Shown here: positions 3,493 to 20,737 of the stretch, one piece after another
How the letters are laid out: every line of letters begins with the position of its first letter
How positions within the stretch are numbered: position 1 is the stretch's first letter
From: Acinetobacter sp. NCu2D-2
GTDB lineage: Bacteria > Pseudomonadota > Gammaproteobacteria > Pseudomonadales > Moraxellaceae
Assembly: GCF_001647675.1 (NCBI RefSeq)
Contig: NZ_CP015595.1
Location: 186,001 to 250,000, forward strand
Direction of reading: 5' to 3'
DNA: 64,000 nt
Made by a program: the position numbers and the translations under genes
Notes under the pieces: generated by a model
Seen by the model: the letters and a program-made list of their open reading frames with translations, nothing else
The model's database searches: none
Told to the model about the DNA's origin: nothing

Positions 3493-4437
3493 ATGGGATA
3501 TGTCGCACGTGAACTGACACCTCGAAATAAACTACTGTTCGGATTGGGTTCATTTCTGATTCCAATTTTAATTTGGTGTGCTGTTAGCTATTTACCATTT
3601 GTATGGCATCCACAAGTACAGATTACTCATGCAGGGAGTGTGACCTATCTTCAAGAAGGTAGTCGTATAGATAAGCATACTTACTATGAGGCTGCGCAAA
3701 ATGCAGTAGATACAGGGGTAGCTCCACCTGAAGGTAAACTCGTCAATCCTATTTATTTACCTGCACCGCATGAAGTTGCAAAAGCACTGGTGACCGCGTT
3801 TACTACACCGCCTATGCAAGCCAATGCGCCCTGGTTTCACCAAAGTTTATGGCATAGTATTCAACTCGTTTTTACTGCATTCTTCATTTCGTCTTTAATT
3901 GGATTACCTTTAGGTATTCTATGCGGATTTTCTAATCGTATCTCTCAGCTGACCGAGCCTTTTGTTGAGTTCTTCCGTTATTTACCAGCGCCTGCTTTTG
4001 GTGCACTTGCGGTCGCCATTCTCGGGATTAACGATGCACCTAAAGTCGCTATCATTGTCATCGGCACTTTATTTCAACAAATTTTAATCATTGCCAATAC
4101 CACACGATTGGTCGATCGCAGTTTAATTGAAGCAGGTTTCACTTTAGGCACAAATAAAATTAAAAGCCTATTTAACGTGGTTATTCCTGCTGCCTTACCC
4201 GAAATTTACCGTAATTTACGAGTCTTATTAGGCTGGGCATGGACGTATTTGATCGTTGCTGAATTGATCGGGAGTACCTCGGGTATTACTTGGTTTATTA
4301 CACAACAGGCACGTTATCAAAACTTCGATAATGTATTTGCAGCGATTTTAATTATTGGTGTCATTGGTTTGCTCTGTGACGTCATTTTAATGAAATTAGG
4401 CCAACATCTCTTTAAATGGAAAGCAGGAGCAAATTAA
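3493..4437 (+). CDS. ABC transporter permease, nitrate/sulfonate/taurine type (urea-carboxylase-linked)
   Basis: 314 residues with about six membrane segments, the first at 14-32, followed by a long outside loop (about 35-115). The cytoplasmic EAA-type coupling loop is EAGFTLGTNKIKSLFNVVIPAALPEI (near 216-241), the BPD_transp_1 signature of SsuC/TauC permeases. It works with the ATPase that starts on its last base and, by inference, with the lipoprotein encoded at 7669-8691. Because the locus carries guanidine riboswitches and a carboxylase operon, the cargo is probably guanidine, urea or a guanidino compound. The family itself also covers sulfonates and nitrate. Translation begins at an ATG with only a weak ribosome site. 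Confidence 0.85.
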   Translation: MGYVARELTPRNKLLFGLGSFLIPILIWCAVSYLPFVWHPQVQITHAGSVTYLQEGSRIDKHTYYEAAQNAVDTGVAPPEGKLVNPIYLPAPHEVAKALVTAFTTPPMQANAPWFHQSLWHSIQLVFTAFFISSLIGLPLGILCGFSNRISQLTEPFVEFFRYLPAPAFGALAVAILGINDAPKVAIIVIGTLFQQILIIANTTRLVDRSLIEAGFTLGTNKIKSLFNVVIPAALPEIYRNLRVLLGWAWTYLIVAELIGSTSGITWFITQQARYQNFDNVFAAILIIGVIGLLCDVILMKLGQHLFKWKAGAN

Positions 4438-5318
4438 TGAGCACAGTAGAATTTAACGCTCGCGAATACTTCGACAAAATTTATAGTCGCCCTGTTATTC
4501 TTGAAGCGAAAAAACTCACACAAAGTTTTAAACATGGTCGTAATGAAAGAACGATTCTCAATGCGCTAGATCTAAAAATTCATAAACGAGAATTTATCTG
4601 TGTGATTGGACCTTCAGGCTGTGGTAAATCAACATTCAGTCGTGTTGTTGCCGGCCTTGATCCTTATACTTCGGGTGAAATCCTAGTCGATGGAGAAGCC
4701 ATTACTGGTCCAAGCCCGGAACGTGGAATGGTATTTCAGGGCTATACTCTTTTTCCATGGAAAACCGTCAAAGAAAATGTCATGTTCGGTCCAAAAATGA
4801 AGGGTCAAAGTAATGCGACTGCTGAAACTCAAGCACGCGAATGGATTAATATCATTGGATTAGAAAAATACGAAAATCAATATCCGCATGAACTGTCTGG
4901 GGGCATGAAGCAACGTGTTGCAATTGCACGTGCATTGGTCAATGAACCTAAAATTTTACTCATGGATGAACCTTTTGGTGCACTGGACCCGCATACTCGG
5001 CAAAAGATGCAGCGTCATTTAATGGATTTATGGCAAAACATTGATATCACAATTATTTTTGTCACGCATGATATGGATGAAGCGATTTTACTTGCGGATC
5101 GCATTGTTGCACTTAAAGCTAATCCTGGTGAAATTAAAGAAATTATTGAAGTTGATCTACCACGCCCACGAGATCCTGATGTAATGCTCACACCAGAATT
5201 TAAAAAACTTCGCCAACGTGTCGATCAACTGGTTCACGCAGAAGAAGATGAACTCGATCCAGCATTGGCCGATTTACCTGAAATTCCACGTATGACCAAA
5301 GTTAGTCATCAAAAATAA
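4437..5318 (+). CDS. ABC transporter ATPase, SsuB/TauB type
   Basis: About 293 residues. Walker A is GPSGCGKST, the signature motif LSGGMKQRV, Walker B ILLMDEP and the switch histidine is in FVTHD. It energises the permease encoded just upstream. The ATG at 4437 is chosen because AGGAG lies 8 bases ahead and the codon overlaps the permease stop (TAATG), a sign of translational coupling. A longer in-frame start at 4416 would lie inside the permease gene. The C-terminal 35 residues are acidic ([18 protein letters not shown]), a tail beyond the core domain. The next gene follows after a riboswitch-like gap of about 80 bases. Confidence 0.9.
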
Positions 5319-5332: not shown

Positions 5333-5381
5333 ACCTTTAGGACGACCTAAAGGTTTATATCGCTGTGTTGGACGACCAACA
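5333..5381 (+). ncRNA. Guanidine-II riboswitch (mini-ykkC)
   Basis: Two hairpins stand side by side, each closed by G-C pairs and capped by an ACGA loop. The first has a 9-bp stem (5333-5341 with 5346-5354, loop 5342-5345). The second has a 6-bp stem (5366-5371 with 5376-5381, loop 5372-5375). The linker is 11 bases. Tandem hairpins with ACGR loops just before a ribosome site are the definition of the mini-ykkC class, which binds guanidinium. The AAGG site at 5385-5388 abuts the second hairpin, so control of translation of the following oxygenase gene is likely. Confidence 0.88.
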
Positions 5382-5396
5382 GTTAAGGTGACAATT

Positions 5397-6407
5397 ATGA
5401 CAGACCAATATGTACTCCCACTGGTCGATATTTCCAAGCTACAAAGTCCATTACTCACTGATCGATTAGAGGTTGCGGCTGCACTTGATCGTGCTTGTCA
5501 GGAGGTTGGATTTTTATATTTAACAGGTTCGCAATTCAATTTTGAATATGCTAAGAAGTTGATTGACATCACCAAAGCATATTTCAATCAAAATTTAAGC
5601 GATAAAATGAAACACTATATTGGGCTATCTCAAAATCATAGTGGTTATGTTCCGATTGGTGAGGAACAATTTGCCAGTCAAAGCTATGATCTAAAAGAAG
5701 CTTACGATGTGAATTATGATTATCAAGGTGCAATTAGCGATTATCCGTTATTGGGTCGAACACAATGGCCTGACTTCCCTGAATTTAAGACGGTGGTGAG
5801 TCAATATTATGAGCATTTACGGCAAATCAGTCGCGATATTTTTTCTACCTTCGCACTGGCATTAAATGTTAAAGAAGATTATTTTGCCGATAAAATTACT
5901 CATGCACCTAGTCAGCTCCGACTAATTCATTATCCTTTTAATCCTGAGATTCAAGATGCTGAAGGCATCGGTGCACATACAGACTATGAGTGTTTCACTT
6001 TATTATTGCCTACTGCACCAGGACTACAAGTTCTCAATAAAAAAGGACAGTGGATTGATATTCCATTAATTGAAAATACACTGGTCATGAATATTGGCGA
6101 CATGATGGAAATTCTCTCTAATGGCAAATATTTAGCTACTAAACATCGGGTCAAGAAAGTTGCCGAAGAGCGATATTCTTTCCCACTTTTTTGTGCCTGT
6201 AATTATGACACTGTGATTGAGCCAATTGTGAAAGATGAAACACCCCAATATGCTGCATTGATTGGTGGCGAACACTTATTTAACCAAACTGCTCAGACGT
6301 TCCAGTATTTAAAAAAACGTATTGCTTCAGGTGAATTGGTTTTGAAAAATGCTGTCCCCCTCTCCTCTTTCGGCCTTTCTGAAAAAAGTGAGGAAACAGT
6401 GCAATGA
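5397..6407 (+). CDS. Fe(II)/2-oxoglutarate-dependent oxygenase of the isopenicillin-N-synthase/ethylene-forming-enzyme superfamily
   Basis: 336 residues in the two-part layout of this family: an N-terminal DIOX_N region (1-120) and a C-terminal double-stranded beta-helix. The iron triad is visible as H194 and D196 (GAHTDYE) and H250 (TKHRV). The 2-oxoglutarate-binding arginine is in the RYSFP stretch shortly after. The gene sits directly behind a guanidine-II riboswitch and overlaps the next gene by 4 bases. Some relatives (ethylene-forming enzyme, plant homoarginine hydroxylases) release guanidine by hydroxylating a guanidino compound. A similar reaction on an alkylguanidine is inferred here; the substrate cannot be read from the sequence. 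The ATG at 5397 is preferred over a GTG at 5388 that lies in the ribosome site. Confidence 0.85.
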   Translation: MTDQYVLPLVDISKLQSPLLTDRLEVAAALDRACQEVGFLYLTGSQFNFEYAKKLIDITKAYFNQNLSDKMKHYIGLSQNHSGYVPIGEEQFASQSYDLKEAYDVNYDYQGAISDYPLLGRTQWPDFPEFKTVVSQYYEHLRQISRDIFSTFALALNVKEDYFADKITHAPSQLRLIHYPFNPEIQDAEGIGAHTDYECFTLLLPTAPGLQVLNKKGQWIDIPLIENTLVMNIGDMMEILSNGKYLATKHRVKKVAEERYSFPLFCACNYDTVIEPIVKDETPQYAALIGGEHLFNQTAQTFQYLKKRIASGELVLKNAVPLSSFGLSEKSEETVQ

Positions 6408-7285
6408 ATTTATTTGATACCTTAAAACACATTCCTCATAAGAGCAGCCAAGATAGTAGAGTGCCCCACTATTTATATGGAGCCTTCCGGCGTAAAAGTA
6501 TTAGTTTTCATAACGGGCTTACAGATGAAAAAACCATTGTTTATTGGTTCCAATCCAAATCATTTACGATTGATTTGCGTCTAAAAACTGTCACTGATAC
6601 TGCTATTACCGAACGACAAGGTTGGATTGGCGACACACTCTGGGACAAATCATCACAATTATTATCTTGGGAGGTAAAGCCCTATGCTAATTATCAAAAC
6701 CATGTGCAATGGCCTGAACCTGCAAAATTACATGTCATTGGAAACAGTATCCTAGAATTTTCTCCCAGCAATGTGTATGTAGAAGATTGGAGACAACAAG
6801 CCACTGATGGATTATTCCTTGGATTAAGGTTAAAAGAATGTATTGATCAAAGTACAGGTGAACATCTCACGATGGATGGTGGCTTGATTATTTGTGGAAG
6901 TTATATCGCGTTCGCTTTAAGTCGTATACCAGAAATCCAACAGAAGGTGGCATCTCTTGATTTCCATTCATGTGAAGATCAGGCTCTTAGTGCTATTGAG
7001 AGTTTTGAAGTTTCTATCTCAACCAATGGTCAGACGAAACAATTCACCACCTCTGAAAAGTGCTATCAAACTGCATTCAACTTTGACGGCTTTACTATTT
7101 TAGAAGATGGATCTTTAGCTCAAGATATACAGCAAGATGACAAACAGCTAAAGTTGATTTTTGAAGTCGATGTTTTTGAGCCAAGTTATCAATTCTCTAC
7201 AAGCACGGTTACACTTCCTGCTGCACAAGATTGGCTCAAACAAGAACAAGATCATTTGATGCATCATGCCGAAATGGTTTTATAA
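6404..7285 (+). CDS. Uncharacterised 293-residue protein of the guanidine locus
   Basis: I do not recognise this family. The protein is soluble, with no signal peptide or membrane segment. It looks beta-rich, with repeated short hydrophobic strands, tryptophans (GWIGDTLWD, LLSWEV, WPEPAK, VEDWRQQ) and a Gly-rich turn (TMDGGLIICGSY near 158-169). The start ATG overlaps the oxygenase stop (ATGA), and the SMR exporter follows after 8 bases. It is therefore co-translated with two genes that lie behind a guanidine-II riboswitch. A role in processing the oxygenase product or in sensing or binding the substrate is possible. Nothing in the sequence identifies catalytic residues. Confidence 0.7.
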   Translation: MNLFDTLKHIPHKSSQDSRVPHYLYGAFRRKSISFHNGLTDEKTIVYWFQSKSFTIDLRLKTVTDTAITERQGWIGDTLWDKSSQLLSWEVKPYANYQNHVQWPEPAKLHVIGNSILEFSPSNVYVEDWRQQATDGLFLGLRLKECIDQSTGEHLTMDGGLIICGSYIAFALSRIPEIQQKVASLDFHSCEDQALSAIESFEVSISTNGQTKQFTTSEKCYQTAFNFDGFTILEDGSLAQDIQQDDKQLKLIFEVDVFEPSYQFSTSTVTLPAAQDWLKQEQDHLMHHAEMVL

Positions 7286-7293: not shown

Positions 7294-7623
7294 ATGTCTT
7301 TTATCTACCTCGCCATTGCGATTGTTGCAGAGGTTATAGCGACTTCTGCACTAAAAGCATCTGAAGGATTCAGTATGCTGTGGCCATCGGTGATCACCAT
7401 TATCGGTTATGCAATTGCCCTGTTTTTTTTATCTTTAACATTAAAAACGATACCGATGGGCATTGCTTATGCTATTTGGTCTGGAGCAGGTATCATTCTG
7501 ATTTCTGCGGTTGGACTGATCGTTTATAAACAACAACTCGATCTGGCTGCACTGATTGGTTTATCTTTCATGATCATAGGTATTGTGGTCATAAATGTTT
7601 TTTCGAAAAGTACGCAACTTTGA
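7294..7623 (+). CDS. Small multidrug resistance (SMR) exporter, EmrE-like
   Basis: 109 residues with four membrane helices. The essential membrane-embedded glutamate is in the first helix (IVAEVIATS). The TIPMGIAYAIWSGAGIILIS block of helix 3 is closer to EmrE/Qac proteins than to the SugE/Gdx guanidinium exporters. The family works as an antiparallel dimer that exchanges cations for protons. Behind a guanidine riboswitch its natural role is probably export of guanidinium or a related cation, although the sequence subtype points to broader cations. AAGGAG at 7284-7289 fixes the ATG at 7294. It is followed by a strong terminator. Confidence 0.88.
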   Translation: MSFIYLAIAIVAEVIATSALKASEGFSMLWPSVITIIGYAIALFFLSLTLKTIPMGIAYAIWSGAGIILISAVGLIVYKQQLDLAALIGLSFMIIGIVVINVFSKSTQL

Positions 7624-7668: not shown

Positions 7669-8691
7669 TTAAGGTAATTCTTGCAACACAGATGCATCGA
7701 TCACGCTGTCTATATCGACTTCTTGTGCATAAATACCATTGCTCACATTGAATTTGTTAACGTGGTAGCTTGATCCATAAATCGAATCGAACCCTGTTCC
7801 TTTATTAAAGACTTTTTTGTTTGCATCTATATCAAGCAAATGTGTGCCATCAATAAACTGCATATATTTCTTCGCATCTACACCGACCCGCTTTGACATA
7901 ATACTCGCGGCTTCTTCACGAGTTGCAGGATCATTAATATATTTAACTGTTTTATCCCAGACTTGAATAATCTTTTTCCATTGCTCTTTATTCGCCTGAA
8001 GATGCGATGGGTTTACGGTTAATGTGTCATAAATCAGACCTGGTTTATCCTTCGAGGTGAAGATAATTTTAGATCCAGCAACTGATGACAATGCTTGGTT
8101 GGCCACAGGTTGCCATACTGCAATCGCATCGATATCTGCTGTAGCGAACACTTGTGGTAACTCATTGGTCATCGTATTTACAAGTTTTACATCGTTCAAA
8201 CTAATTTTGGCATCATCCAATGCAGTAGAAAGTAAAAGATGATCGACTAGGCCTTTTTCAGTGGCAATGGTTTTGCCTTTAAGATCCTCAATACGCTCAA
8301 TTCCATTTTTCGCAATAATGACATCATTTCCCGCTGAGTAATCTGTTGCCATGATCATAACCCCTTTGGTACCGCCTGATCCGGTCACGAGGTTATCACC
8401 ATTGGTTACTAAAACTGCATCAAGCTGATTTGCTGCAAAAGCTGAAAGTGAAGCTGAATAATCAAACCATTTAAACTCAGCATTGACGCCTGCTTCCTTT
8501 AACCAACCTTTATCAATAGCCACTTGCCAAGCAACAAAACCTGGCCAGTCACTATAACCAATGGTAATGACATTGGCAGCTTGAGTACTTTTCGCATTTG
8601 CAGATGGTTCAGGAATTTTAGCTGTATTATCACAGCCAACCATAAATAAACTGCCACTCACTGCAACAGCTAAAGTTAATTTTTTGATCAT
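7669..8691 (-). CDS. ABC transporter substrate-binding lipoprotein, TauA/NrtA type
   Basis: About 340 residues. The signal peptide ends in a lipobox, LFMVGC, with the acylated cysteine at position 20, so the protein is anchored to the membrane. The mature part has the two-lobe fold of the nitrate/sulfonate/taurine binding proteins (ITIGYSDWPGFVAWQVAIDKGW near the start). The ATG at 8691 overlaps the stop of the allophanate hydrolase gene (ATGA), so the two are coupled. It probably delivers substrate to the permease and ATPase encoded at 3493-5318, which lack a binding protein of their own. Putting the hydrolase and binding-protein genes in one unit suggests a nitrogen compound as cargo. Confidence 0.88.
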   Translation of the reverse strand: MIKKLTLAVAVSGSLFMVGCDNTAKIPEPSANAKSTQAANVITIGYSDWPGFVAWQVAIDKGWLKEAGVNAEFKWFDYSASLSAFAANQLDAVLVTNGDNLVTGSGGTKGVMIMATDYSAGNDVIIAKNGIERIEDLKGKTIATEKGLVDHLLLSTALDDAKISLNDVKLVNTMTNELPQVFATADIDAIAVWQPVANQALSSVAGSKIIFTSKDKPGLIYDTLTVNPSHLQANKEQWKKIIQVWDKTVKYINDPATREEAASIMSKRVGVDAKKYMQFIDGTHLLDIDANKKVFNKGTGFDSIYGSSYHVNKFNVSNGIYAQEVDIDSVIDASVLQELP

Positions 8692-10496
8692 TGCGCAACT
8701 TCCCCTATGCATTCGCATCTAAATTTTGTGTTGGATAAATTTTTTGAGTAAATATAGTCACGCCAGCCACCAAAATGACTGACATCAGTTGCATCACCTA
8801 ATGCATAGTGTTCACAAATAAACCCTTTAACCCACTGCCCATCTATCAGTTTTAGATTTCCAATCCCTAAAGGTGCAGGGACTTCCGCCACAATTTCGCC
8901 AAATCGTGCAAATGGAATTTCCCAGATTTCAACTTCAATAGAATGACCTGTTGCCCCATAACTCAAAGCTGGTTTTGCTGGGGTGGTATTTTTCAGTGCA
9001 TATAGATGGTAATTCGGGGCTGTTTTTGTTTTTTTCAGCAATGTACCACCACGCGTGGTGAGCTGAAAATTCAGCGGCATACCCGATAAATGTGCACCGA
9101 CCACAGCCAACTGAACCGTGTGTGCAGAATCAATTTTGATATTTTTCTGATAACGTTGTTGAGATGTGCCTAGAGTTAAACCCGTTGCCTGTTGCCAAAT
9201 TTGTCCGAAGTTGGCTAATGCCTGATCCATCCATGCCTGTGCAATAAAGGTCACACCAGTCGGTAAACCATCTGCACGAATTGTATTAGGTAGTGCTAAT
9301 GCCGACAAATCAGCAAAATTCACAAAGTTGGTATATGCCCCCATATGGCTATTTTTCACAATTGGGTCAGCTTCAACCTCATCAATTTTATAAATCGTCG
9401 GTGCTGTCGGTACCATCAAAGCATCAAATGGTTCTAATGCGATATTAATTTTTCGAGCCAATTGAGCACGTTCATATTCAGCTTCGATCATATCCACTGC
9501 AGTGAATTGATCGGCTTGTGCAATAATTTGTGCAATAACAGGATGTGCTTGTTCTCTTGTGACATGTTTTGCCACTGCACTGGTACGCTCAGAAACCCAA
9601 GCTTTGTTATAAAGTGCTGAGGCCAACTGATTAAAGACATCAAAATCAATCTCTTCTACGCAATATCCTAATGATTTCACACGTTCAATGGCGTGATCAA
9701 AGGCTTTTGCAGATTCTCTATCGCAATAGAATTCAAGCTGTGCAGGAATTGCAATTTTGCCTTTTGAAAATTGGCTTGGCACATTGGCTGGGTGCCGACG
9801 AGAAAATTCATCTGTTTCATCATACCCTTGCATCACTTGTGCAACCGTCCATGCATCGTCTACGGTATGTGCAAAAATTGAGATTACATCAATCGTACGA
9901 CACGCTGGCACGAGACCCGTACTCGAAAACCATCCCTTGGTTGGCTTTAGACCAACAATATTATTATGTCCTGCAGGGACACGACCAGAGCCAGCAGTGT
10001 CCGTACCTAAACTGAAAGGTACCTGTCCATTTGCCACCGCTACACTTGAGCCTGAGCTTGAACCACCGCTGATATATTCAGGATTAAAACTGTTTTTAAC
10101 TGCTCCGAATGGTGAACGTACACCGACTAAACCTGTTGCAAATTGATCGAGGTTCGTTTTACCGATCACAATTGCACCTGCTGCTTTTAATTTCGCAACT
10201 ACAGTCGCATCATTCTCGGCGATATAGCTCGCTTCTTTACAGGCTGCTGTGGTTTCAAAACCGGCAACATCTATATTGTCCTTCACTGCAAAAGGAATAC
10301 CGTATAGAGGTAAATCCGCTTTGGCTTGCAATACTAATTGATCGATTTGAGCTTTGAGCTGTGCTGCCGTAGCAATTGAGATCCAAGCATGGCCCTCATT
10401 GGTGATTTGCGCTACATATGTATATAAGTCATTCAGTTGAATACGCTGTTCTGCGTAGGCGGTTTGCCAATCTTGAATTGTCCATAATGAATTCAT
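8688..10496 (-). CDS. atzF: Allophanate hydrolase
   Basis: 602 residues, the usual length for the stand-alone enzyme. The amidase-signature domain (1-440) carries the Ser-cisSer-Lys triad region (GGSSSGSSVAVANGQVPFSLG with the lysine in AVKDN). The C-terminal domain (about 470-595) is the second domain found in AtzF-type enzymes. It hydrolyses allophanate to ammonia and CO2, the last step of urea or guanidine carboxylation. It lies in an operon after a NikR-like regulator (11 bases apart) and before the binding lipoprotein (4-base overlap). The carboxylase that makes its substrate is encoded about 5 kb away in a separate operon on the same strand. Confidence 0.93.
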   Translation of the reverse strand: MNSLWTIQDWQTAYAEQRIQLNDLYTYVAQITNEGHAWISIATAAQLKAQIDQLVLQAKADLPLYGIPFAVKDNIDVAGFETTAACKEASYIAENDATVVAKLKAAGAIVIGKTNLDQFATGLVGVRSPFGAVKNSFNPEYISGGSSSGSSVAVANGQVPFSLGTDTAGSGRVPAGHNNIVGLKPTKGWFSSTGLVPACRTIDVISIFAHTVDDAWTVAQVMQGYDETDEFSRRHPANVPSQFSKGKIAIPAQLEFYCDRESAKAFDHAIERVKSLGYCVEEIDFDVFNQLASALYNKAWVSERTSAVAKHVTREQAHPVIAQIIAQADQFTAVDMIEAEYERAQLARKINIALEPFDALMVPTAPTIYKIDEVEADPIVKNSHMGAYTNFVNFADLSALALPNTIRADGLPTGVTFIAQAWMDQALANFGQIWQQATGLTLGTSQQRYQKNIKIDSAHTVQLAVVGAHLSGMPLNFQLTTRGGTLLKKTKTAPNYHLYALKNTTPAKPALSYGATGHSIEVEIWEIPFARFGEIVAEVPAPLGIGNLKLIDGQWVKGFICEHYALGDATDVSHFGGWRDYIYSKNLSNTKFRCECIGEVAQ

Positions 10497-10507: not shown

Positions 10508-10948
10508 TTATTCTGTTTCATTTTGAGGAATGGGAGGCATGACGGCATCCATCATTTCAAGATGCCCTTTAATCACCCCTTTTAAGGCAATAAATTTCTG
10601 GCTAATTTTGACAAGATCACTACTCTTGCCTTGTAAAAGCATGACTTCCAAAACTTTTTGGTCATCGAGTTGGATATGATGTGAGCTGATGACTTGGGTA
10701 AGATATTGCTGTTGAAGTTCAAACAATTGGCTCCGGCAGGTTTTTGAACTTACGTCGTACAATAATGTAAATGTCCCGACCATGACCTCATTATGCTCAG
10801 CATGATCTGCGATAAGATGTTGATTAATCATGTCTACAATCGCTTGTGAGCGACTTTCGTAATGCTGATTCACAATTTTTTCATCGAGCGCATTTAAGGT
10901 TTTTTCTGGAACAGTGACACTGATTCGTGCCAATTTAGCTTTCGGCAC
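10508..10948 (-). CDS. NikR-like ribbon-helix-helix metal-responsive regulator
   Basis: 146 residues. The N-terminal ribbon-helix-helix (ARISVTVPEKTLNALDEKI...SRSQAIVDMI, residues 7-45) is typical of CopG/NikR. The C-terminal ACT-like part (55-135) has the NikR layout, including the HH pair near position 95 and the final beta strand. NikR proteins are tetramers that repress transcription when nickel is bound. Here the gene precedes allophanate hydrolase, so it probably controls this operon. The ligand could be nickel (urease or guanidine-hydrolase balance) or something else. It starts with GTG and AAGGA is upstream. A 37-residue ORF ends 5 bases before it. Confidence 0.75.
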   Translation of the reverse strand: MPKAKLARISVTVPEKTLNALDEKIVNQHYESRSQAIVDMINQHLIADHAEHNEVMVGTFTLLYDVSSKTCRSQLFELQQQYLTQVISSHHIQLDDQKVLEVMLLQGKSSDLVKISQKFIALKGVIKGHLEMMDAVMPPIPQNETE

Positions 10949-11321: not shown

Positions 11322-11586
11322 ACATCTTTTTATAAATCGTATCTCTACGATCCACGTCAAGTACAAGAACGACAATTTTTGAATCAATGACTTGGTAAAC
11401 CAAACGATAGCCTGCCGATCTCAATTTCACTTTGTATAAATCGACTGAGCCACTCAGTTTGTTTTTCGGGATTTTGGGATTGCCTAAAACTGTCTCGAGC
11501 TTGCGAATAAACTGTTCCGCAATTTGCGGATTGAGTTTATCGAACTTTTTAAGCGCGGTTTTTGTGAACTCGAGCTCGTAGGTCAT
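11320..11586 (-). CDS. RelE/ParE-superfamily toxin
   Basis: 88 residues. The pattern MTYELEFTKTALKKFDKL, then KLSGSVDLYKVKLRSAGYRLVYQV and a final VLDVDRRD strand is that of RelE-type toxins, which cut mRNA in the ribosome. The basic residues of the active surface (K, R and the GYRLVY strand) are present. The gene overlaps its antitoxin gene by 38 bases, the usual tight coupling. It lies between a candidate defence gene and the NikR operon, so it may help hold this inserted block. Confidence 0.88.
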   Translation of the reverse strand: MTYELEFTKTALKKFDKLNPQIAEQFIRKLETVLGNPKIPKNKLSGSVDLYKVKLRSAGYRLVYQVIDSKIVVLVLDVDRRDTIYKKM

Positions 11587-11824
11587 TTAGGCTTACCTTT
11601 ACGGTTTCTTCTGTTTGTGCTTCTTCAGCAAGTTTAAGCAGTTCTTTGTCTTCAATTAAATCCATCAAGCGTTCATACATGTCCGCAGGAACACAATAGA
11701 ATGCTGGATTGTTACGGTTGAGGATTGCTACTGCTTCACCAAAGCCATTGTTTACGACTTCCATTGGGTTCTTCTTAAGCTCTGAAACACTTGCGACAAA
11801 ACGTGAATGAATAATATTGTTCAT
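11549..11824 (-). CDS. Antitoxin, Phd/YefM (StbD-like) type
   Basis: 91 residues from the ATG at 11824. The N-terminal fold SRFVASVSELKKNPMEVVNNGFGEAVAILNRNNPAFYCVP is the Phd/YefM DNA-binding domain. The acidic helix that follows (LIEDKELLKLAEEAQ) is the part expected to wrap the toxin. The shorter start is preferred because MNNIIHSRF is the normal opening and the preceding 12 residues of the longer frame do not fit. It represses its own operon in known cases. The C-terminal 12 residues overlap the toxin start. Confidence 0.85.
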   Translation of the reverse strand: MNNIIHSRFVASVSELKKNPMEVVNNGFGEAVAILNRNNPAFYCVPADMYERLMDLIEDKELLKLAEEAQTEETVKVSLNDLRARVHKNRA

Positions 11825-11912
11825 ATTGGTCGATTTCCTAGATATGCAAACAATAGTCAAATGATAACCAATTTAAAGATCATTTAAAAGACCTGTTATT
11901 TGGTCTTTAAAC

Positions 11913-14900
11913 TCATTCAATCGTTCTTAAATAAATTGCCCAATAGGTTCTCTCTAATATTTCTTGTATATGTTGATTTACACCTTTTATTTCACATAAG
12001 TCATTCAATCTTAAAAAATGTTGTCTCAAACCTGTGTACTCAAGATTAGATACAACAATATCTACCGCTAAATCACAATAATTGGTATCAAGCCAAGATA
12101 TTAAGACTTCAAATGCTTCAACAATACTCCATCCTTGATCAACACAATCATGAAGCCATCTATCTGACCAAATAATTTTGCCTTCTTGAAGTTCTTCACT
12201 AAGCCTTTTAGTACTTATTTTTAAGGAATATTGGCTATCATCAGCAATTAGAGGTTCTATAATTTCTTGTGCAAAATTTTTCCACCCATTTTTAATACAA
12301 ATTTGGTACAAATTCATTTTAGCTAGATCATCAAAATATTGAATATATGGCTTTATTGCTAGAATTTGTTGATCACGATAGATTCCTTTACGACCTTCAG
12401 TTTTAAAGCCCCAATGATGATTAAAGTATTTAAAAACTTCTTGTAAATTTCTCTCTTGGATTGAGTTATGCACTAACGAACATAATTTATCAGTACCAAC
12501 TAAAAGTGCTAGCTGAATAAAAATATTATATTGATTGAGCTTATCCCAATGTTTTTCTAATAAAGTTTCTGCTTTCTCTATAGAGAATTTTTCGAATATT
12601 TCAAATAGCATCCAATAATTATCATCATTGATGGTCAACATATGATCTTCAAAGATTTGTTCAAATTTGTCATGCCACATATAGCGAGTTGCTTGCCACC
12701 AATATGTGGAATCATTATTTTTAATTTTATCTATTAACTGATCGACTATACTCAAATCCCTATATGTTGCTTTTGCCATTAAAACTCTATCATATATTTC
12801 ATCTTTACTTAAAATGGTTTGAAGTGTAGGTAGATCCCCCTCACTAGGACTGCTAATCCATATAGCTAAAGCATGTTTACGAGCACAAGAATCATTTTGA
12901 TTATTTATAAATATTTCTTTAAGTCTATCCTTTGAAGGCTTAGATAATAATTGACCTTCTTTAAAAGCACGACTCACATCGTCAGCTATCTGTCCCCATG
13001 TATGAAATCCTCTTCTATCCCAATCTGCTAATTTTTTAACTTGGGCTTCTAATACATCAGGATGATCAACTAATCTCAATAAATACAAAATATAATTTTT
13101 TAAACCACTCGTCTGAGCCCAATTTAGTAAATAATGGATAGTAGACTCTGTTGGTAAATAATTTTTAAATTTAAAGTCCAAAGAGTACATTGTGAATGAA
13201 TTTTTAGGTGATCTCTGATACTGATCTTGCTCTTCTGATAAGTTATTCCAATAGTTTAAAACTGAATCTAGTAAATATACTGATTTTTCATCACAGATTC
13301 TTGATAGCACCCAAAATATAAGAAGGTAATCTTTTTCTTCATCTTTAATGTTGTCTATAGCAATCGTTACCGAATCTAAATACTCTACATCTCCAATGTA
13401 TCCTATGATTATAAATAGCGAATGAAGAGTTGAAACTTTAGTATTTTGATCTTTAAGAATTTCAAATAACTTATTTTTTAAGCCATTTTTATATTTTTTT
13501 ACTATGAAATTTATAACCAAATGAATCTGCGGATAGTTTATTTCAAAAGGGAACAATCTTATCCAATGAATACCATCACTTAAATTTCCATTTTTAAAGC
13601 CACATTCATAATACAAATCATGACGATCTTTTTTAGGATAAAGTTTAAGCAATTCTAGAATTGAGGGGTGTACCAATTCATTTAGAACCGTAAGTGATTT
13701 ATAACGTAATGTACTCTTCGATAGCTTATGATTTTCTTGATTATTTAACCAATTTGAAATAACTTTTATGCAAGTATCAATATATTTAGAATTGTCTTTG
13801 ATAGCATAATAGTAAGCATATATTCCTATTAAAAAATTATGCTGAGTAAGTAATTCAAGTCTTTCAATGTTTAATAAGGATAAATAACAGGATAGTCCCA
13901 ATGCTTCTGAGAAATAGGGATCAGTCAAAAATTCTAAATATTCATCTTTTTCTAAAAAATCCTGTATAGCTTGAGCCATGAGCAGAAATTTAATCTTGTC
14001 ATGACGAAAGATAATAATATTTTGTTCATCAAGTCTTATAATTTGTCCATCATCGAGTATATTCCGTAGATCTGACCTTTCCTCACGATCTAAAAATCCA
14101 GATAATTGAATTATATTGATTTTATCAATCTTATTTAAAACCAAATATGAAATACTTTTTGAAAGAGTTATTTCAAGATCATTACAAAATTTTTCTTTTG
14201 CATATGCAATATTTTCTAGTGTTGTTGAAATAAATTTTTCAATAATTTTATCATTTTTTTTAGTTTCCTTAAAATCAACTAAAGCCAAAAGCAAGGGATC
14301 ATTGCCAACGTTCCTTGCAATACTTTTTAATGTCAACTCATCAATATTTAGGTTTTCTGATTTACATCTTTTTTGTAATGCCTCTAATGCTTGCTCATCT
14401 GTGTAATTATCTAAATAAATATATGAAAATCCGTTTTTAGATAATTCTTCTTTGAGCTTGAGTGAAAGTATGCTTAGTTTTTGATACCAAACAGGACACA
14501 AGATATTTATTCTTTTTTCATTGCTTGCCCATGAGCTAATTTTTTCAATTAGTTGTTCGGTATTATTTATATTGTTAATATCCTCAATTAAAATGATTAA
14601 AGGGTTTTCCACAGAACATAAATCTAAAGCCTTTCTACCACATCCTTTAATTAAGCGACCTGAATATCTTTGTAGCTCTTTTTCAATAGCTTCATCTAAG
14701 TTTAAAGAATTTTGTATGTTTTCTTCCCTCAATACTAAAATCGAATGCCCTTTATCTAACTTTTTTAGAATAAAGTTCGTACAAATAGTAGTTTTACCTG
14801 AACCAGAGGTTCCAATTACTAAATTCAAATTTTGAAATTTTATGTCATCACGTTCAACGAATAAGTCTTGTTTAAAATTAAGATGTACAGTACTTAAAGT

Positions 14901-15488
14901 GCCTATTCTTAAGAGTTCTTCATGAGATAGAACAGTAGGCAAAACACCAAAATATTTATGACGAATTGTTTGACCATTCGGATCAATATCTAAAAATGAA
15001 GAAATTCTAGAGTTTGACCATATTTCTAATTCAATATCATGTTGTGAAGCAAGCTGATGTGCTTTTATACGTATTTCTTGAGGCTCAACACTATTACACA
15101 TCAAGGCTAACCTTGCTTTTAAATCAGGATTTCCTTGCCTAATTTTAACTAACTCTTTAATTGCTTTTACTAAGTCACCATCACTTCCTGTGGGTTTACT
15201 ACCTTTTTTTCTCGGTGTAACTGTGTCTAAATCTCTCAACCATTTGGTTTCTAAATCATTACGTGATGTTGTTGTATGTGCTACTGCAACAACCTTTGCT
15301 TCGCCGTTGACATAACACCAACCTACATTATCCAATGGTGCTTTAATTGTTTTACCTTGCGGATTCATACCCTGATGAGAAATACTCTTATAAATCTCAG
15401 GTTCAGCAAATCTAAGCACATCAGATGCTAATCTTTCGAATAATCCTGCATCAGTAATATTTGCTAGAGCACTATTGGTTTCATTCAT
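11913..15488 (-). CDS. Large STAND-type P-loop NTPase with nuclease-like N-terminus, candidate antiphage protein
   Basis: 1191 residues. The N-terminal 180 residues look like a restriction-endonuclease-type fold (core strands around D52 in PLDNVGW and AKVVAVAHTTTSR at 64-76), although the usual E-x-K is not clear. A P-loop NTPase follows: Walker A GTSGSGKTT (226-234) and Walker B LIILIEDI (297-304). From about 450 the protein is helical with many Leu and Trp repeats, like the sensor repeats of STAND/Avs proteins. Such proteins bind phage products and then cleave nucleic acid or otherwise stop the cell. It stands alone with its own start, at about 29% GC, in the middle of the guanidine locus, which suggests later insertion. 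The exact defence family is not known to me. Confidence 0.65.
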   Translation of the reverse strand: MNETNSALANITDAGLFERLASDVLRFAEPEIYKSISHQGMNPQGKTIKAPLDNVGWCYVNGEAKVVAVAHTTTSRNDLETKWLRDLDTVTPRKKGSKPTGSDGDLVKAIKELVKIRQGNPDLKARLALMCNSVEPQEIRIKAHQLASQHDIELEIWSNSRISSFLDIDPNGQTIRHKYFGVLPTVLSHEELLRIGTLSTVHLNFKQDLFVERDDIKFQNLNLVIGTSGSGKTTICTNFILKKLDKGHSILVLREENIQNSLNLDEAIEKELQRYSGRLIKGCGRKALDLCSVENPLIILIEDINNINNTEQLIEKISSWASNEKRINILCPVWYQKLSILSLKLKEELSKNGFSYIYLDNYTDEQALEALQKRCKSENLNIDELTLKSIARNVGNDPLLLALVDFKETKKNDKIIEKFISTTLENIAYAKEKFCNDLEITLSKSISYLVLNKIDKINIIQLSGFLDREERSDLRNILDDGQIIRLDEQNIIIFRHDKIKFLLMAQAIQDFLEKDEYLEFLTDPYFSEALGLSCYLSLLNIERLELLTQHNFLIGIYAYYYAIKDNSKYIDTCIKVISNWLNNQENHKLSKSTLRYKSLTVLNELVHPSILELLKLYPKKDRHDLYYECGFKNGNLSDGIHWIRLFPFEINYPQIHLVINFIVKKYKNGLKNKLFEILKDQNTKVSTLHSLFIIIGYIGDVEYLDSVTIAIDNIKDEEKDYLLIFWVLSRICDEKSVYLLDSVLNYWNNLSEEQDQYQRSPKNSFTMYSLDFKFKNYLPTESTIHYLLNWAQTSGLKNYILYLLRLVDHPDVLEAQVKKLADWDRRGFHTWGQIADDVSRAFKEGQLLSKPSKDRLKEIFINNQNDSCARKHALAIWISSPSEGDLPTLQTILSKDEIYDRVLMAKATYRDLSIVDQLIDKIKNNDSTYWWQATRYMWHDKFEQIFEDHMLTINDDNYWMLFEIFEKFSIEKAETLLEKHWDKLNQYNIFIQLALLVGTDKLCSLVHNSIQERNLQEVFKYFNHHWGFKTEGRKGIYRDQQILAIKPYIQYFDDLAKMNLYQICIKNGWKNFAQEIIEPLIADDSQYSLKISTKRLSEELQEGKIIWSDRWLHDCVDQGWSIVEAFEVLISWLDTNYCDLAVDIVVSNLEYTGLRQHFLRLNDLCEIKGVNQHIQEILERTYWAIYLRTIE

Positions 15489-15572: not shown

Positions 15573-18500
15573 TCAAGCTACCGGCGCCAATGTAAACAAT
15601 ACCTGCCCCGTTTTCACCGTTTGCCCTTTTTCAATGGTAATCGCTTCAACCTTCATACGCTCAGGCGCAATAATTGGAATCTCGATTTTCATCGCTTCAA
15701 TCACGGCAAGCGTTGCGCCTTCTTCCACAATATCACCTGACTGACATTCAATTTTCCAAATTGAACCCGGCATATGCGACTCCACTGCACAGCCACCATC
15801 AGGCACTTCTACCCCTTCACCATCATCCACAGCATCTAAACTTTCAGACACATATTCTGCAAGCCCTGCTTCATGCCAACGACGACGTTCTGCATCAAAA
15901 TTAGCTTGTTGCACTGACTTAAATGCTGAAATGGATGCTTGGTTTTCAGTTAAGAAGTCGTTGTACTCTTTTAAGTTTAATACACCTTCTTCAATACGCA
16001 ATTTTAAGCGACCTGCTTTAAAGTCCTCACGCATTTGCATGAGTTCAGTTTCAGAAACTTCATAGAATTTAATTTGGTCAAAGAAGCGTAGTAACCACGG
16101 CATACCTTTTTCAAAATCAGGATTCCTACGGTAGCGAGACCACATTTGCGTGGTACGACCAACAAATTGATAGCCCCCCGGACCTTCCATACCGTATACG
16201 CACATATACGCACCGCCAATACCCACGGCATTTTCAGGCGTCCATGTACGAGCAGGGTTATATTTGGTGGTCACTAAACGTTGACGTGGATCAAGTGGCG
16301 TGGCCACAGGTGCACCGAGGTAGACATCACCCAATCCCATCACCAAATAACTCGCGTTATAGACCACATCTTTCACGGCTTGTTTGTCTTTTAAGCCATT
16401 AATACGACGGATAAATTCGATATTGTCCGGACACCATGGCGCATCAGGACGCACAGTTTGCATATAACGTTCAGTCGCAAGTTGGGTTTGTGAATCTTCC
16501 CACGCGAGCGGTAAATACACCGTACGTGATGGCACTTGTATTTCCGTCACATCTGGCAGCTGTTCTTCCGCTACTTGAAGTAGACGCAATAAATCAATTT
16601 GATCAAGTTTGATTGAATCAAAATGGATTTGTAGCGAACGAATCCCCGGTGTCAGGTCGATAATGCCCTGAATATTTTGCTTTTGAACCCATTGCATCAG
16701 CGCATGAATACGGAAACGTAAGTTCAGATCTAGCACCAACTCGCCATATTCCACCAATATGTAATTATTGCCAGCAGGACGATACACCACATCAGGTGCA
16801 CCATTTTCACCTTTTAAGGTATCGAGGACGGCATTTTTTAATGTCGAAAGTTCAGGATAGAACGATTCATCAAATGCCACCGCTTGTGTATCTGAAGCTT
16901 CTAATTGCGCTTGATATTTTTCATTTAAAAGTTTGGCTTGGTGATAGCTCACAGGGACAAATTTCACTTTGTCACCGGCTTTAAGCTGACCGAGTTTCCA
17001 CAGCTCAGAATTAATCAACACCGCAGGACAGACGAAACCACCAAGACTTGGACCATCTGGCCCAAGAATAATTGGCATATCCCCAGTGAAATCGATCGCA
17101 CCAATGGCATAAGCATTGTCATGAATATTGGATGGATGCAGACCAGCTTCACCACCATCTTCACGTGCCCATTCCGGTTTTGGCCCGATTAAACGAATAC
17201 CGGTACGGCTTGAGTTAAAGTGGATCTCAAAGGTATTAGCAAAGAAAGTATCAATATCATTTTTGGTAAAGAAATCAGGTGCACCATGCGGGCCATACAT
17301 CACCGCAATTTCCCATTCATGACTAAATGATGGCACTTGCTCAGGTGCAAGGCTTTTCACTTCATCACTTGTGAATGCCGTAATTGGCAACATATCGCCA
17401 ATCAATAAGTTACGCCCTGCATGACCACCAAATTGACCTAAGGTAAAGGTCGCTTGTGAGCCGAGGTATTTAGGTACATTCAAACCACCTTTAATGCCGA
17501 TATAGGTACGGCAACCTGTCGCGATTTTGCCACATTTGAGAATCTGACCTTTACGCACATTCACGGTTTGCCACATCGGAACTTGAACGCCATCTAGTGT
17601 TGATGGCATATCACCACCGGCCAGTACGATTTGGCTATCACAATGGAATTTTAGAGTTGGACCTTGTAGCGTACATTCGAGTCCTGCAGTGTTATAGGCA
17701 TTGCCAAGCAACTGGTTTGCGACATTCAGTGACAATGGATCAATCGCACCTGATGGTGGCACACCCACATCCCAATAGCCCAAACGTCCTGTGACATCTT
17801 GTACAGCAGTTTGAATACCGGCTTGTAATACTTCAATCTTTTGAGTTTTCCATTCAAAGGTATTTAAGAAACGTGTGGTTTGTGTGCCAGCTTTAAATAC
17901 CTCACAGTAGATGATGTTTTGTAGATATTCAAGATTGGTTTCAATCCCTGCAACTGAAGTTTTCGCCAAAGTATCAGTCATGGCTTGAATCGCAGAAGCA
18001 CGATCGTTTGCTGTGACAATGATTTTAGCAATCATCGGGTCATAGAATGATGATACATTTGAACCTGTTTCGACCCATGTTTCATTACGGGCATTAGAAT
18101 CAAACTCAACATGTGTCAGTAAACCGGCACTTGGTTGGAAGTTTTTGATTGGGTCTTCAGCATATAAACGCACTTGAATCGAATGACCTTTCGATTCAAT
18201 TTTTTCTGTTGGTGCAGTCCAATCACCACTAGCCAAGGTGACCATCCATTCCACCAAGTCCACACCAAAGACTTGCTCGGTCACGCCATGTTCCACTTGT
18301 AGACGGGTATTCACCTCCAAGAAATAGAATTCTTGGGTGTCGGTATCCATCACAAATTCAACTGTACCGGCAGAACGGTAATTCACTGACTGCATCAGTT
18401 GAATGGCAACATTTTGAATATAGGCACGCTGTTCGTCATTGATATGCGGTGCCGGTGTTTCCTCAATCACTTTTTGGTTGCGACGCTGTACCGAACAATC

Positions 18501-19178
18501 ACGCTCTCCCAGTGCAATCACTTGACCTTGACCATCACCAAAAATTTGCACTTCAATATGACGGGCATTTTGCACGAATTTTTCAAGGTACAAACCGGCA
18601 TCTTTAAAGTTGGCTTGGGCTAAATAAGACACCGTTGCATAAGCATCTTTCAGTTCTGCTTCGTTCCAGACCAAACGCATGCCGATCCCACCACCACCGG
18701 CAGTACTTTTCAGCATCACAGGATAACCAATACGATTTGCTTCCATTAAAGCTTCAGCTTCATCCGCCAATAACTGACTACCCGGCAATAACGGTACACT
18801 GGCTTGAATCGCAAGTTCACGTGCAGTGTGTTTAAGACCAAAGGCTCGCATCTGTGCAGAGTTTGGCCCAATAAAAGCAATACCTTGTGATTCACACAAG
18901 TCACAGAATTCAGCATTTTCGGACAAGAAGCCATAACCCGGATGAATCGCTTGTGCGCCGGTTTGTTTGGCAACCTCTAAAATTTTATCGACATTTAAAT
19001 AGCTTTGGCTGGCAGGTGCTTCACCGATATAAACGGCTTCATCGGCCAAAGTCACATGGAGTGAATCACGATCGGCTTCCGAATAGACTGCAACAGATTG
19101 GATACCTAATTTTTTAAGGGTACGAATGACACGACACGCAATTGCACCACGGTTGGCGATTAAAACTTTATTAAACAT
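15573..19178 (-). CDS. Biotin-dependent urea/guanidine carboxylase
   Basis: About 1201 residues in the standard order: biotin carboxylase with ATP-grasp (1-450, KVLIANRGAIACRV at the start and the glycine loop STAGGGGIGMR), the KipA/KipI-like carboxyltransferase domains (about 480-1080), and a C-terminal biotinyl domain with the biotinylated lysine in EAMKIE. It carboxylates urea or guanidine with ATP and bicarbonate. With two DUF1989 partners and a guanidine-I riboswitch ahead of the operon, guanidine is the more likely substrate, giving carboxyguanidine. The ATG at 19178 is one base past the preceding stop and has GAGGA upstream; longer starts would overlap that gene. The product route ends with the allophanate hydrolase encoded at 8688-10496. 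Confidence 0.9.
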   Translation of the reverse strand: MFNKVLIANRGAIACRVIRTLKKLGIQSVAVYSEADRDSLHVTLADEAVYIGEAPASQSYLNVDKILEVAKQTGAQAIHPGYGFLSENAEFCDLCESQGIAFIGPNSAQMRAFGLKHTARELAIQASVPLLPGSQLLADEAEALMEANRIGYPVMLKSTAGGGGIGMRLVWNEAELKDAYATVSYLAQANFKDAGLYLEKFVQNARHIEVQIFGDGQGQVIALGERDCSVQRRNQKVIEETPAPHINDEQRAYIQNVAIQLMQSVNYRSAGTVEFVMDTDTQEFYFLEVNTRLQVEHGVTEQVFGVDLVEWMVTLASGDWTAPTEKIESKGHSIQVRLYAEDPIKNFQPSAGLLTHVEFDSNARNETWVETGSNVSSFYDPMIAKIIVTANDRASAIQAMTDTLAKTSVAGIETNLEYLQNIIYCEVFKAGTQTTRFLNTFEWKTQKIEVLQAGIQTAVQDVTGRLGYWDVGVPPSGAIDPLSLNVANQLLGNAYNTAGLECTLQGPTLKFHCDSQIVLAGGDMPSTLDGVQVPMWQTVNVRKGQILKCGKIATGCRTYIGIKGGLNVPKYLGSQATFTLGQFGGHAGRNLLIGDMLPITAFTSDEVKSLAPEQVPSFSHEWEIAVMYGPHGAPDFFTKNDIDTFFANTFEIHFNSSRTGIRLIGPKPEWAREDGGEAGLHPSNIHDNAYAIGAIDFTGDMPIILGPDGPSLGGFVCPAVLINSELWKLGQLKAGDKVKFVPVSYHQAKLLNEKYQAQLEASDTQAVAFDESFYPELSTLKNAVLDTLKGENGAPDVVYRPAGNNYILVEYGELVLDLNLRFRIHALMQWVQKQNIQGIIDLTPGIRSLQIHFDSIKLDQIDLLRLLQVAEEQLPDVTEIQVPSRTVYLPLAWEDSQTQLATERYMQTVRPDAPWCPDNIEFIRRINGLKDKQAVKDVVYNASYLVMGLGDVYLGAPVATPLDPRQRLVTTKYNPARTWTPENAVGIGGAYMCVYGMEGPGGYQFVGRTTQMWSRYRRNPDFEKGMPWLLRFFDQIKFYEVSETELMQMREDFKAGRLKLRIEEGVLNLKEYNDFLTENQASISAFKSVQQANFDAERRRWHEAGLAEYVSESLDAVDDGEGVEVPDGGCAVESHMPGSIWKIECQSGDIVEEGATLAVIEAMKIEIPIIAPERMKVEAITIEKGQTVKTGQVLFTLAPVA

Positions 19179-19179
19179 A

Positions 19180-19833
19180 TTATGCGTCCTCGCCTTCACG
19201 GATGATCAATTGAATTTTAGTTGGGTTGTAAGCATTACAAGGGTTATTCAGTTGTGGGCAGTTAGAGATCAGCACGATCAAATCCATTTCCGCTTTAATT
19301 TCCACATATTTACCCGGTGCCGAAATACCATCATCAAACTTTAGATGTCCCTCACTTGTGACGGGTACATTCATAAAGAAGTTAATATTTGGACCGATGT
19401 GACGCACATTTAAGCCGTGTTTTTTGGCAATTGGATGCTGAGACAGCGCAATCATGAAATTGTTACGGCAACTGTGCATTGGATATGTGTCATGTGCATA
19501 ACGAACCGTGTTACTTTCACATGAACATGCCCCGCCTAAGGTGTCATGGCGACCGCAGTTATCATCATGGATGGTGGCAATTTTGTTGCCAAAGTTGGTG
19601 TATAGCGCTGCGCCTTTTTCTAAATAGATCTGTTGATTGATGGCTAAGGTATCAGTTGCGCTATAACGCTCTTCAGGGTTAGAAGCCGAGATAAACAGCG
19701 TATCTACCGCTTGGTTGCCTTCTAAATCCACGATACGGAAATATTGCCCTTTTTTGACTTCGCACATCCATGCTTCACCGGCTGGACAAATTTCACTTAA
19801 AACTGATTTTTCTAATTTTACGAGTGCAGTCAT
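19180..19833 (-). CDS. DUF1989 protein, urea-amidolyase-associated protein 2 / carboxyguanidine deiminase subunit
   Basis: 217 residues of the DUF1989 family. Conserved features are VKKGQYFRIVDLEGNQAVDTL, the HDDNCGRHDTLGGACSCE metal-site-like block with clustered His and Cys, and NFFMNVPVTSEG. Work on Pseudomonas showed that two such proteins form the carboxyguanidine deiminase that turns carboxyguanidine into allophanate. That function is inferred here from the gene order (subunit, subunit, carboxylase) and the riboswitch. It is co-transcribed: 12 bases separate it from the upstream partner and one base from the carboxylase. Confidence 0.88.
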   Translation of the reverse strand: MTALVKLEKSVLSEICPAGEAWMCEVKKGQYFRIVDLEGNQAVDTLFISASNPEERYSATDTLAINQQIYLEKGAALYTNFGNKIATIHDDNCGRHDTLGGACSCESNTVRYAHDTYPMHSCRNNFMIALSQHPIAKKHGLNVRHIGPNINFFMNVPVTSEGHLKFDDGISAPGKYVEIKAEMDLIVLISNCPQLNNPCNAYNPTKIQLIIREGEDA

Positions 19834-19845: not shown

Positions 19846-20583
19846 TTAAGCAGTTAATGCGTAGTAGCGATTATTGTTTTGAAATGCACGCTGATTTTGC
19901 GGGCATGAATCACGACATACATCGCTGTCACCTAAAGGAAGTGCTTTGTATAAAGACAATTGAACATCGGCAGGCGCATATTCCGTGCTGTTATCTAAAG
20001 CATGCGGTGCGGATGATAAGAACACCAAGCAATCCATTTCAAAGCGCAGTTCAATCACTTGATTCGTATTGTCAGATGCTACATAGCTGAGATTGCCATG
20101 GTCATCCGGTTGAACTTTAGAAAACAGATTTAAAGTACTGCTCAAATCCGTTGCAGATAATCCAAACTTGGTCATCTCAAGCAGTAACGAATCTTTGCCG
20201 TTACGGTACATGTCGTTGCGTGCATCTTGGAAGGTTTTTGAACCAAATTGTTGTTCAATTTGTTGTGCAGTGCTTGGTGCACAGAACGCATCATTCCAAC
20301 CGTGGTCATCTTTGACGATGGAAATCATCGCGCGACCCAGGTCAGATGCAAGGATATGTCCTGTACTTAAAAATGCCGTATGTTGCCCTTTTAAGCTGTC
20401 TGGCATGTTATAGCGTTCGAGCTTGTCTTCGCTATTGACGCAATACAGTGCCACATTGGCATTTTTGCCTAAGGATTGAAGTTGTAATACTGCGCCACGC
20501 TGAATACGTGCTGACCAGTGGTGTCCACCCGGTAAACGTTCCGTCCAAAGGACTTGATCTTCGTGATAAGTTATTGTGCTCAT
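19846..20583 (-). CDS. DUF1989 protein, urea-amidolyase-associated protein 1 / carboxyguanidine deiminase subunit
   Basis: About 245 residues from the ATG at 20583 (MSTITYHEDQVLWTERLPGGHHWSARIQRG). An open frame runs 141 bases further upstream, but that stretch is the guanidine-I riboswitch and so is not protein. ATG codons at 20589 and 20583 are both possible. The family block DDHGWNDAFCAPSTA and the C-terminal CRDSCPQ are seen, matching the partner subunit of the deiminase. It is the first gene of the carboxylase operon, so its translation is the one most directly exposed to the riboswitch. Confidence 0.86.
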   Translation of the reverse strand: MSTITYHEDQVLWTERLPGGHHWSARIQRGAVLQLQSLGKNANVALYCVNSEDKLERYNMPDSLKGQHTAFLSTGHILASDLGRAMISIVKDDHGWNDAFCAPSTAQQIEQQFGSKTFQDARNDMYRNGKDSLLLEMTKFGLSATDLSSTLNLFSKVQPDDHGNLSYVASDNTNQVIELRFEMDCLVFLSSAPHALDNSTEYAPADVQLSLYKALPLGDSDVCRDSCPQNQRAFQNNNRYYALTA

Positions 20584-20611
20584 ATGCATCCATCCCAATC
20601 TTCTACGGTTT

Positions 20612-20715
20612 ACCTCCCGGGCTTTTATCCCTCCGTGTAGCTTGAGCTTGCAACTTAAGCCGTGAACTCTCGGTCGCAGACATACTTGAAACTTCATGTA
20701 TCGGAACCCTAGATC
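20612..20715 (-). ncRNA. Guanidine-I riboswitch (ykkC)
   Basis: Read on the minus strand, the leader has the conserved blocks of the ykkC class in order: CTAGGGTTCCG (20712-20702), ACCGAGAG (near 20673), ACGGCTTAAG, then ACGGAGGGATAAAAGCCC with GGGAGGT after it (ending near 20612). These blocks are close to invariant in the family, so the call does not need a covariance search. It binds guanidinium and turns the gene on. It lies between the sigma-54 promoter at 20738-20754 and the first DUF1989 start. Confidence 0.95.
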
Positions 20716-20737
20716 ACTTTTCATCTAAGTATATGAA

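Follow-up and report, generated by a model that had tools for sequence, protein, structure and literature searches.

The demethylation of methylguanidine to guanidine was described in 2025 for the salt-loving bacterium Vreelandella boliviensis LC1. According to the accessible text of PMC12508155, MgdH of this strain is a methylguanidine hydroxylase and MgdL an N-(hydroxymethyl)guanidine lyase with an essential DxR motif and a narrow preference for N-(hydroxymethyl)guanidine; the pathway is named there for the halophiles Vreelandella and Salinisphaera. In V. boliviensis a guanidine-II riboswitch lies ahead of gca, and mgdHL stands between gca and atzF (PMC12508155). Here we analyzed a 64,000-nucleotide stretch of Acinetobacter sp. 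NCu2D-2 (contig NZ_CP015595.1, positions 186,001 to 250,000; the window, to which all positions below refer), in which a guanidine-II (mini-ykkC) leader is followed by mgdH- and mgdL-like genes (Table 1). From sequence comparison, we put the probability at roughly three in four (0.77) that positions 5333 to 7285 form a substrate-induced methylguanidine demethylation module feeding the nearby guanidine carboxylase pathway. The linkage is real and is largely explained by the 2025 discovery; what is new is the divergent clade of the enzymes, the direct gating by the riboswitch, the wide spread, and the RNA signature.

In both loci an Fe(II)/2-oxoglutarate oxygenase gene overlaps the next gene, which encodes a beta-barrel protein with DxR, and both are linked to guanidine riboswitches, to the guanidine carboxylase pathway, and to an importer of the ATP-binding cassette (ABC) type (PMC12508155). 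Unlike in V. boliviensis, the guanidine-II element of the window is placed directly ahead of mgdH, in a separate operon. A literature search, in which most papers were judged by their listing and subscription papers were mostly out of reach, found no description of a guanidine-II-mgdH-mgdL arrangement, and the accessible portion of PMC12186494 does not mention Acinetobacter. In the proposed scheme, binding of methylguanidine or guanidine to the leader would bring P1 and P2 into a kissing contact and raise the translation of mgdH together with that of the coupled mgdL, as expected from published guanidine-II work. MgdH would hydroxylate the methyl group of methylguanidine and MgdL, a lipocalin-like beta-barrel lyase, would split the hemiaminal into guanidine and formaldehyde, steps which have been shown for the V. 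boliviensis pair. The guanidine would then enter the guanidine carboxylase, carboxyguanidine hydrolase, and allophanate hydrolase pathway, the operon for which is predicted to be under its own guanidine-I switch. An earlier, sequence-only reading of this DNA had proposed an oxygenase whose release of guanidine from an alkylguanidine would feed the carboxylase pathway; this idea is supported, a family member acting in this way on methylguanidine (PMC12508155), but the reading named neither the mgdL gene at 6404 to 7285 nor the published precedent nor the subthreshold U-A form of the riboswitch. The reading becomes specific for methylguanidine because a second enzyme, MgdL, follows the oxygenase.

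The leader matched the Rfam guanidine-II model RF01068 at 5334 to 5380 (30.8 bits, E = 0.0019, in a scan of 4.5 kb). The hairpins, the ACGA loops, and the ribosome-binding site were where the sequence-only reading had placed them, the leader ending 3 bases before this site (AAGGTG) of the oxygenase gene; the wording of that reading that the hairpins fit mini-ykkC exactly was slightly too strong, since the covariance match that it had called for fell below the gathering score of 32 bits, which is a detection cutoff and not a structural feature. In a scan of the whole genome (3.05 Mb), the leader was the sole guanidine-II match at E ≤ 0.001 (E = 3.0e-4). At gathering level, a scan of the window reported only the guanidine-I element at 20612 to 20723. 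The window had a single occurrence of the paired loop motif, which appeared in none of 100 shuffles, and the predicted fold (−23.9 kcal/mol; z = −3.44) was equaled in stability by 1 of 200 shuffles. Across 43 Acinetobacter leaders both loops were retained (ACGA or ACGG), and the two G-C pairs that close the loop did not vary in either hairpin. The outer pairs covaried, 7 of 9 in P1 and 1 of 6 in P2 having changed on both sides. The covariation score and the percentage paired were each reached by 0 of 500 shuffles; two of the five shuffle measures were less clear, the number of pairs changed on both sides being reached by 11 and the number of pair types by 58 of 500. Sliding the partners by +1 left the covariation score nearly equal (0.195, versus 0.197 in the true register) and lowered the cells paired from 85.6% to 62.0%. 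The guanidine-II loop is defined as ACGR in the accessible text of PMC5486947. With two ACGR tetraloop hairpins closed by GG/CC and with covarying stems, the leader at 5333 to 5381 is confirmed at the sequence level as a guanidine-II riboswitch, with a predicted response to ligand.

The oxygenase retained the triad noted in the sequence-only reading (H194, D196, and H250, verified in the sequence) and also contained R259 and S261 (RxS), thus presenting the complete HxD...H/RxS pattern. A GTG at 5388, upstream of the ATG, likewise opens its frame. We located the V. boliviensis operon through four primer sequences given in PMC12508155 (loci L211 and L221; all four in L211), and its MgdH aligned with that of the window at 47% identity (343 columns; E = 4e-113). 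In a tree with outgroup rows, which were on long branches, the MgdH family formed one clade (29 rows; support, 100/100). MgdL was assigned no Pfam family in a Pfam scan and had about 18% identity to the V. boliviensis protein; profile comparison nevertheless joined the two types with a probability of 98.6 (E = 4.9e-16). D57 and R59 of the window protein aligned with the catalytic D49 and R51, and D and R were invariant in the alignments made. Predicted models of both types (the window type represented by the protein of locus L102, not by the window's own) had the same best fold match, PDB 3rby, which is yeast YLR301w in an entry titled uncharacterized. A sequence search of PDB with the MgdL profile returned nothing up to an E value of 1. 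One metagenome-assembled genome (L140) carries both MgdL types, at 9001 to 9969 and 13147 to 13854, one of the window type and one V. boliviensis-like (31%).

We searched 175 Acinetobacter genomes and found a match to MgdH in 66, of which 58 (window included) had a full-length orthologue of at least 63%, 1 had a fragment, and 7 had paralogues only. Of the 57 other full-length orthologues, 50 loci were fetched, and in every one mgdH was preceded by the double guanidine-II motif and followed by mgdL. Across 390 genomes of the order, MgdL was detected in 13 (E ≤ 1e-10), and the 12 besides that of the window all had the arrangement riboswitch-mgdH-mgdL. Together with loci from a wider scan, limited to the best 80 of 148 matches (79 loci), 127 distinct proteins of the clade remained. 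Of these, 121 had two loop motifs within 220 bases and an adjacent mgdL, and 2, both from Variovorax, had one canonical and one variant hairpin. This count reads loop motifs, not stems, and the set leaves out identical proteins and MgdH proteins that are under 290 amino acids (aa) long or lack the NH[SCT]G motif, a filter that dropped the mgdL-linked Myxococcota loci L183 and L184; L137, L144, L157, and L159 (mgdL found, no mgdH match) and L238 also stand outside it. The window-type module was present in Acinetobacter, Pseudomonas, Gilvimarinus, Haliea, Colwellia, Variovorax, and others. A pathway reported from halophiles thus becomes a widespread one, pointing to methylguanidine as a nitrogen source that is common in the environment.

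Several results weigh against a methylguanidine module of the V. boliviensis kind. Window-type MgdH formed its own clade (13 rows; 100/97), outside that of the V. boliviensis type (5 rows; 96/91, long-branch row L220 included), and a joint clade of the two was neither shown nor rejected (approximately unbiased test, p-AU = 0.366). Window MgdH has NHSGYVPIGEEQF where V. boliviensis MgdH has HHRGYVPPGEESPD, in a stretch possibly lining the active site, and the substrate could therefore be another one. The two MgdL proteins gave no significant match in pairwise BLASTP (E = 0.046), and a profile built from Acinetobacter alone reached a probability of just 34%. Four of the 127 clade members had no paired motif upstream, and in one of these four, L164, mgdL was not the next gene; the paired motif was likewise absent upstream of the mgdL-linked Myxococcota loci L183 and L184 and the mgdL-linked Novosphingobium plasmid L238. 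Conversely, three members of the MgdH family that are linked to guanidine-II, the second copy in L093 and those in L097 and L098, had no mgdL. Pairing of the linker with the ribosome-binding site as an off-state was not supported either, although the minimum free energy fold of the window leader pairs UCGCU with GGUGA: among the 93 of 107 leaders used (those longer than 110 bases being excluded), the expected pairing was no better than with shuffled linkers, at 2.65 versus 2.60 in Acinetobacter (higher in 21 of 43 leaders) and 0.61 versus 0.70 outside it (higher in 9 of 50).

The same chemistry on another N-alkylguanidine (e.g., N,N-dimethyl- or ethylguanidine), with MgdL cleaving the matching hemiaminal, would accommodate the separate and well-supported MgdH clade, the strongly diverged MgdL, the distinct riboswitch subtype described below, and a nearly fixed motif difference in MgdH (window-type rows have NHSGYVPxGEE, apart from a few variants, and those of the V. 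boliviensis type mostly have HHRGYVPPGEES). We nevertheless consider it unlikely, as the catalytic Asp and Arg and the YVExW motif of the window MgdL match those of V. boliviensis, whose MgdL is narrow for N-(hydroxymethyl)guanidine (PMC12508155).

Much less probable still is an arginine- or homoarginine-type hydroxylase that frees guanidine in the manner of plant 2-ODD-C23 or the ethylene-forming enzyme, the precedent behind the sequence-only reading. It would be of the same superfamily, and the best PDB match of the window MgdH, 9ovh (159.7 bits), is named an ethylene/succinate-forming enzyme; other listed chains of that name, however, scored about 42 to 53 bits, and the characterized MgdH aligned over its full length at 47%. 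We know of no lyase partner or riboswitch for the plant 2-ODD-C23 or ethylene-forming enzymes. These share superfamily and guanidine release with MgdH (PMC11018352 and PMC12508155, accessible text) but act on amino-acid substrates, and the linked MgdL would lack an evident function, because hemiaminals of the plant enzymes decay spontaneously (PMC12508155). A degenerate, nonresponsive guanidine-II relic ahead of constitutively expressed genes would fit the Rfam score below the cutoff but is the least credible alternative, given that the 43 leaders retain both loops and covarying stems and that 121 of the 127 clade members still have two loop motifs.

The leaders linked to mgdH resembled RF01068 in their two ACGR-loop hairpins, G-C closing pairs, and adjoining ribosome-binding site and differed from it in the third pair of P2 from the loop and in scores that were mostly below the curated cutoff. 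Among 97 distinct leaders linked to mgdH, this pair was U-A in all but one, which had U-G (96 versus 1), as against G-C in 22 of 23 gca-linked leaders of the same set of loci, a comparison set picked by position. It was also G-C in the gca-linked switch of the V. boliviensis locus. Of the guanidine-II loci found in the order, the 30 with the highest scores had G-C in 29 cases and G-U in one, a choice by score that favors the consensus G-C. The three paralogues without mgdL (in L093, L097, and L098) had U-A as well. A search of 341 genomes with a pattern for the U-A subtype gave 32 hits, many of them by chance, since the reversed control matches too; of 30 loci examined, 12 had both stems of at least 5 pairs, and 11 of these 12 preceded mgdH-mgdL. 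The signature may serve to find guanidine-II members missed by Rfam. A role of the third pair of P2 as a direct ligand contact was unsupported by the structure in PMC5486947, which, as given in the accessible text, shows the ligand stacked on the closing G and touching the loop.

At gathering level, Rfam listed the mgdH leader in none of seven sources and the gca-linked elements in two of the seven. Of 17 loci from Acinetobacter relatives, 9 were reported at E ≤ 1 (24.5 to 32.2 bits), 8 were absent, and 1 passed the RF01068 cutoff. A scan of the order sample with a stricter filter found 0 of 13 mgdH leaders at E ≤ 0.01; the window leader was missed there but found in the 4.5-kb and whole-genome scans. 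The association with mgdH may have gone unnoticed so far because the Rfam model scores these leaders poorly. A tentative and rather doubtful extension is that the mgdH-linked RNAs are a separate subclass with methylguanidine or another alkylguanidine, not guanidine, as the natural ligand. If so, the RNA would sense an N-alkylguanidine and gate its own demethylase in many Pseudomonadota, largely below the Rfam cutoff. The direct wiring of switch to demethylase makes the evolution of methylguanidine sensing by guanidine-II RNAs a testable question.

Table 1. Features of the guanidine locus in the window
Feature	Position	Strand	Remarks
ABC transporter permease	3493..4437	+	First gene of + strand cluster; PF00528; in 50/50 Acinetobacter orthologue loci
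ABC transporter ATP-binding protein	4416..5318	+	PF00005; in 50/50 Acinetobacter orthologue loci
Guanidine-II P1 hairpin	5333..5354	+	ACCTTTAGG-ACGA-CCTAAAGGT; 3rd pair from loop A-U
Guanidine-II P2 hairpin	5366..5381	+	TGTTGG-ACGA-CCAACA; 3rd pair from loop U-A
Ribosome-binding site AAGGTG	5385..5390	+	Read from sequence; 3 bases past P2
mgdH-like Fe(II)/2-oxoglutarate oxygenase, 336 aa	5397..6407	+	PF14226 (DIOX_N) and PF03171 (2OG-FeII_Oxy); start ATG 5397
mgdL-like lyase, 293 aa	6404..7285	+	Start overlaps mgdH stop (ATGA), one base ahead of stop codon
Small multidrug resistance (SMR) transporter	7294..7623	+	PF00893; in 46/50 orthologue loci
ABC transporter substrate-binding protein	7669..8688	-	PF09084 NMT1
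Allophanate hydrolase (atzF)	8688..10496	-	TIGR02713, 767.7 bits (cutoff, 511)
NikR-like ribbon-helix-helix regulator	10508..10948	-	PF08753, PF01402 (PF01402 just below cutoff)
Guanidine carboxylase (family annotated urea carboxylase)	15573..19199	-	TIGR02712, 1852 bits (cutoff, 1304); guanidine role from literature
Carboxyguanidine deiminase/hydrolase subunit (UAAP2)	19180..19833	-	TIGR03424, 306 bits (cutoff, 285)
Second subunit (UAAP1-like), start approximate	19846..20590	-	Open reading frame list, operon position; tblastn 35-41% in relatives
Guanidine-I riboswitch of carboxylase operon	20612..20723	-	RF00442, 77.6 bits (cutoff, 63)

The SMR transporter scored higher with Qac/EmrE models (131 bits) than with SugE (60 bits), all NCBIfam scores being below the cutoff; SugE/Gdx guanidine exporters are the usual link of guanidine switches, and the window SMR is unlike these. 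The NikR-like regulator lies inside the guanidine cluster in 44 of 50 Acinetobacter loci, and we know of no nickel need of the carboxylase pathway. Between gca and the nikR-like gene, 11549 to 15488 encodes a 1,191-aa P-loop protein (STAND-like, below the cutoff) and a Phd/YefM-like antitoxin; the gap measures 4.6 kb in the window versus about 1.4 kb in an Acinetobacter baumannii record (L239), and the stretch is likely an insertion. The same A. baumannii record has the guanidine cluster with about 60 bases between the ATP-binding and substrate-binding protein genes and, in the stretch fetched, no mgdH, mgdL, SMR gene, or double motif, so the mgdH-mgdL cassette is optional. A TnpB/IS200 unit and an IS5 element flank the cluster beside a plasmid-replication-like stretch (1047 to 2928, 21255 to 22129, and 22873 to 23606); given these flanks and a 310-kb contig in a two-contig genome, the cluster is probably plasmid borne.

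The second oxygenases without mgdL (L093, 10939 to 12015; L097, from 8536; L098, from 8626) were 42 to 44% identical to the window MgdH and adjoin another substrate-binding protein gene. These Acinetobacter paralogues, which form a lineage, possibly act on another guanidino compound, and such relatives with a guanidine-II switch of their own point to further guanidine-releasing oxygenases. The closest relatives of Acinetobacter MgdH outside Moraxellaceae, among the matches listed, were sphingomonad genes (59 to 61%). The paired motif was also absent upstream in L188 (Sphingobium), and in L238 a TetR regulator gene occupies this place; gene transfer with a change of regulation is likely for the sphingomonad mgdH. 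On plasmids of Paraburkholderia (L231, 4081 to 6020) and Kozakia (L233, 4120 to 6002), an MgdH-family gene directly follows a gene annotated as xylose isomerase or sugar phosphate isomerase/epimerase, which is perhaps an alternative partner replacing MgdL; in L231, UAAP1, UAAP2, and urea carboxylase genes lie downstream. Among 20 neighboring proteins of stand-alone modules at seven loci, only NMT1-type binding proteins recurred, in four loci.
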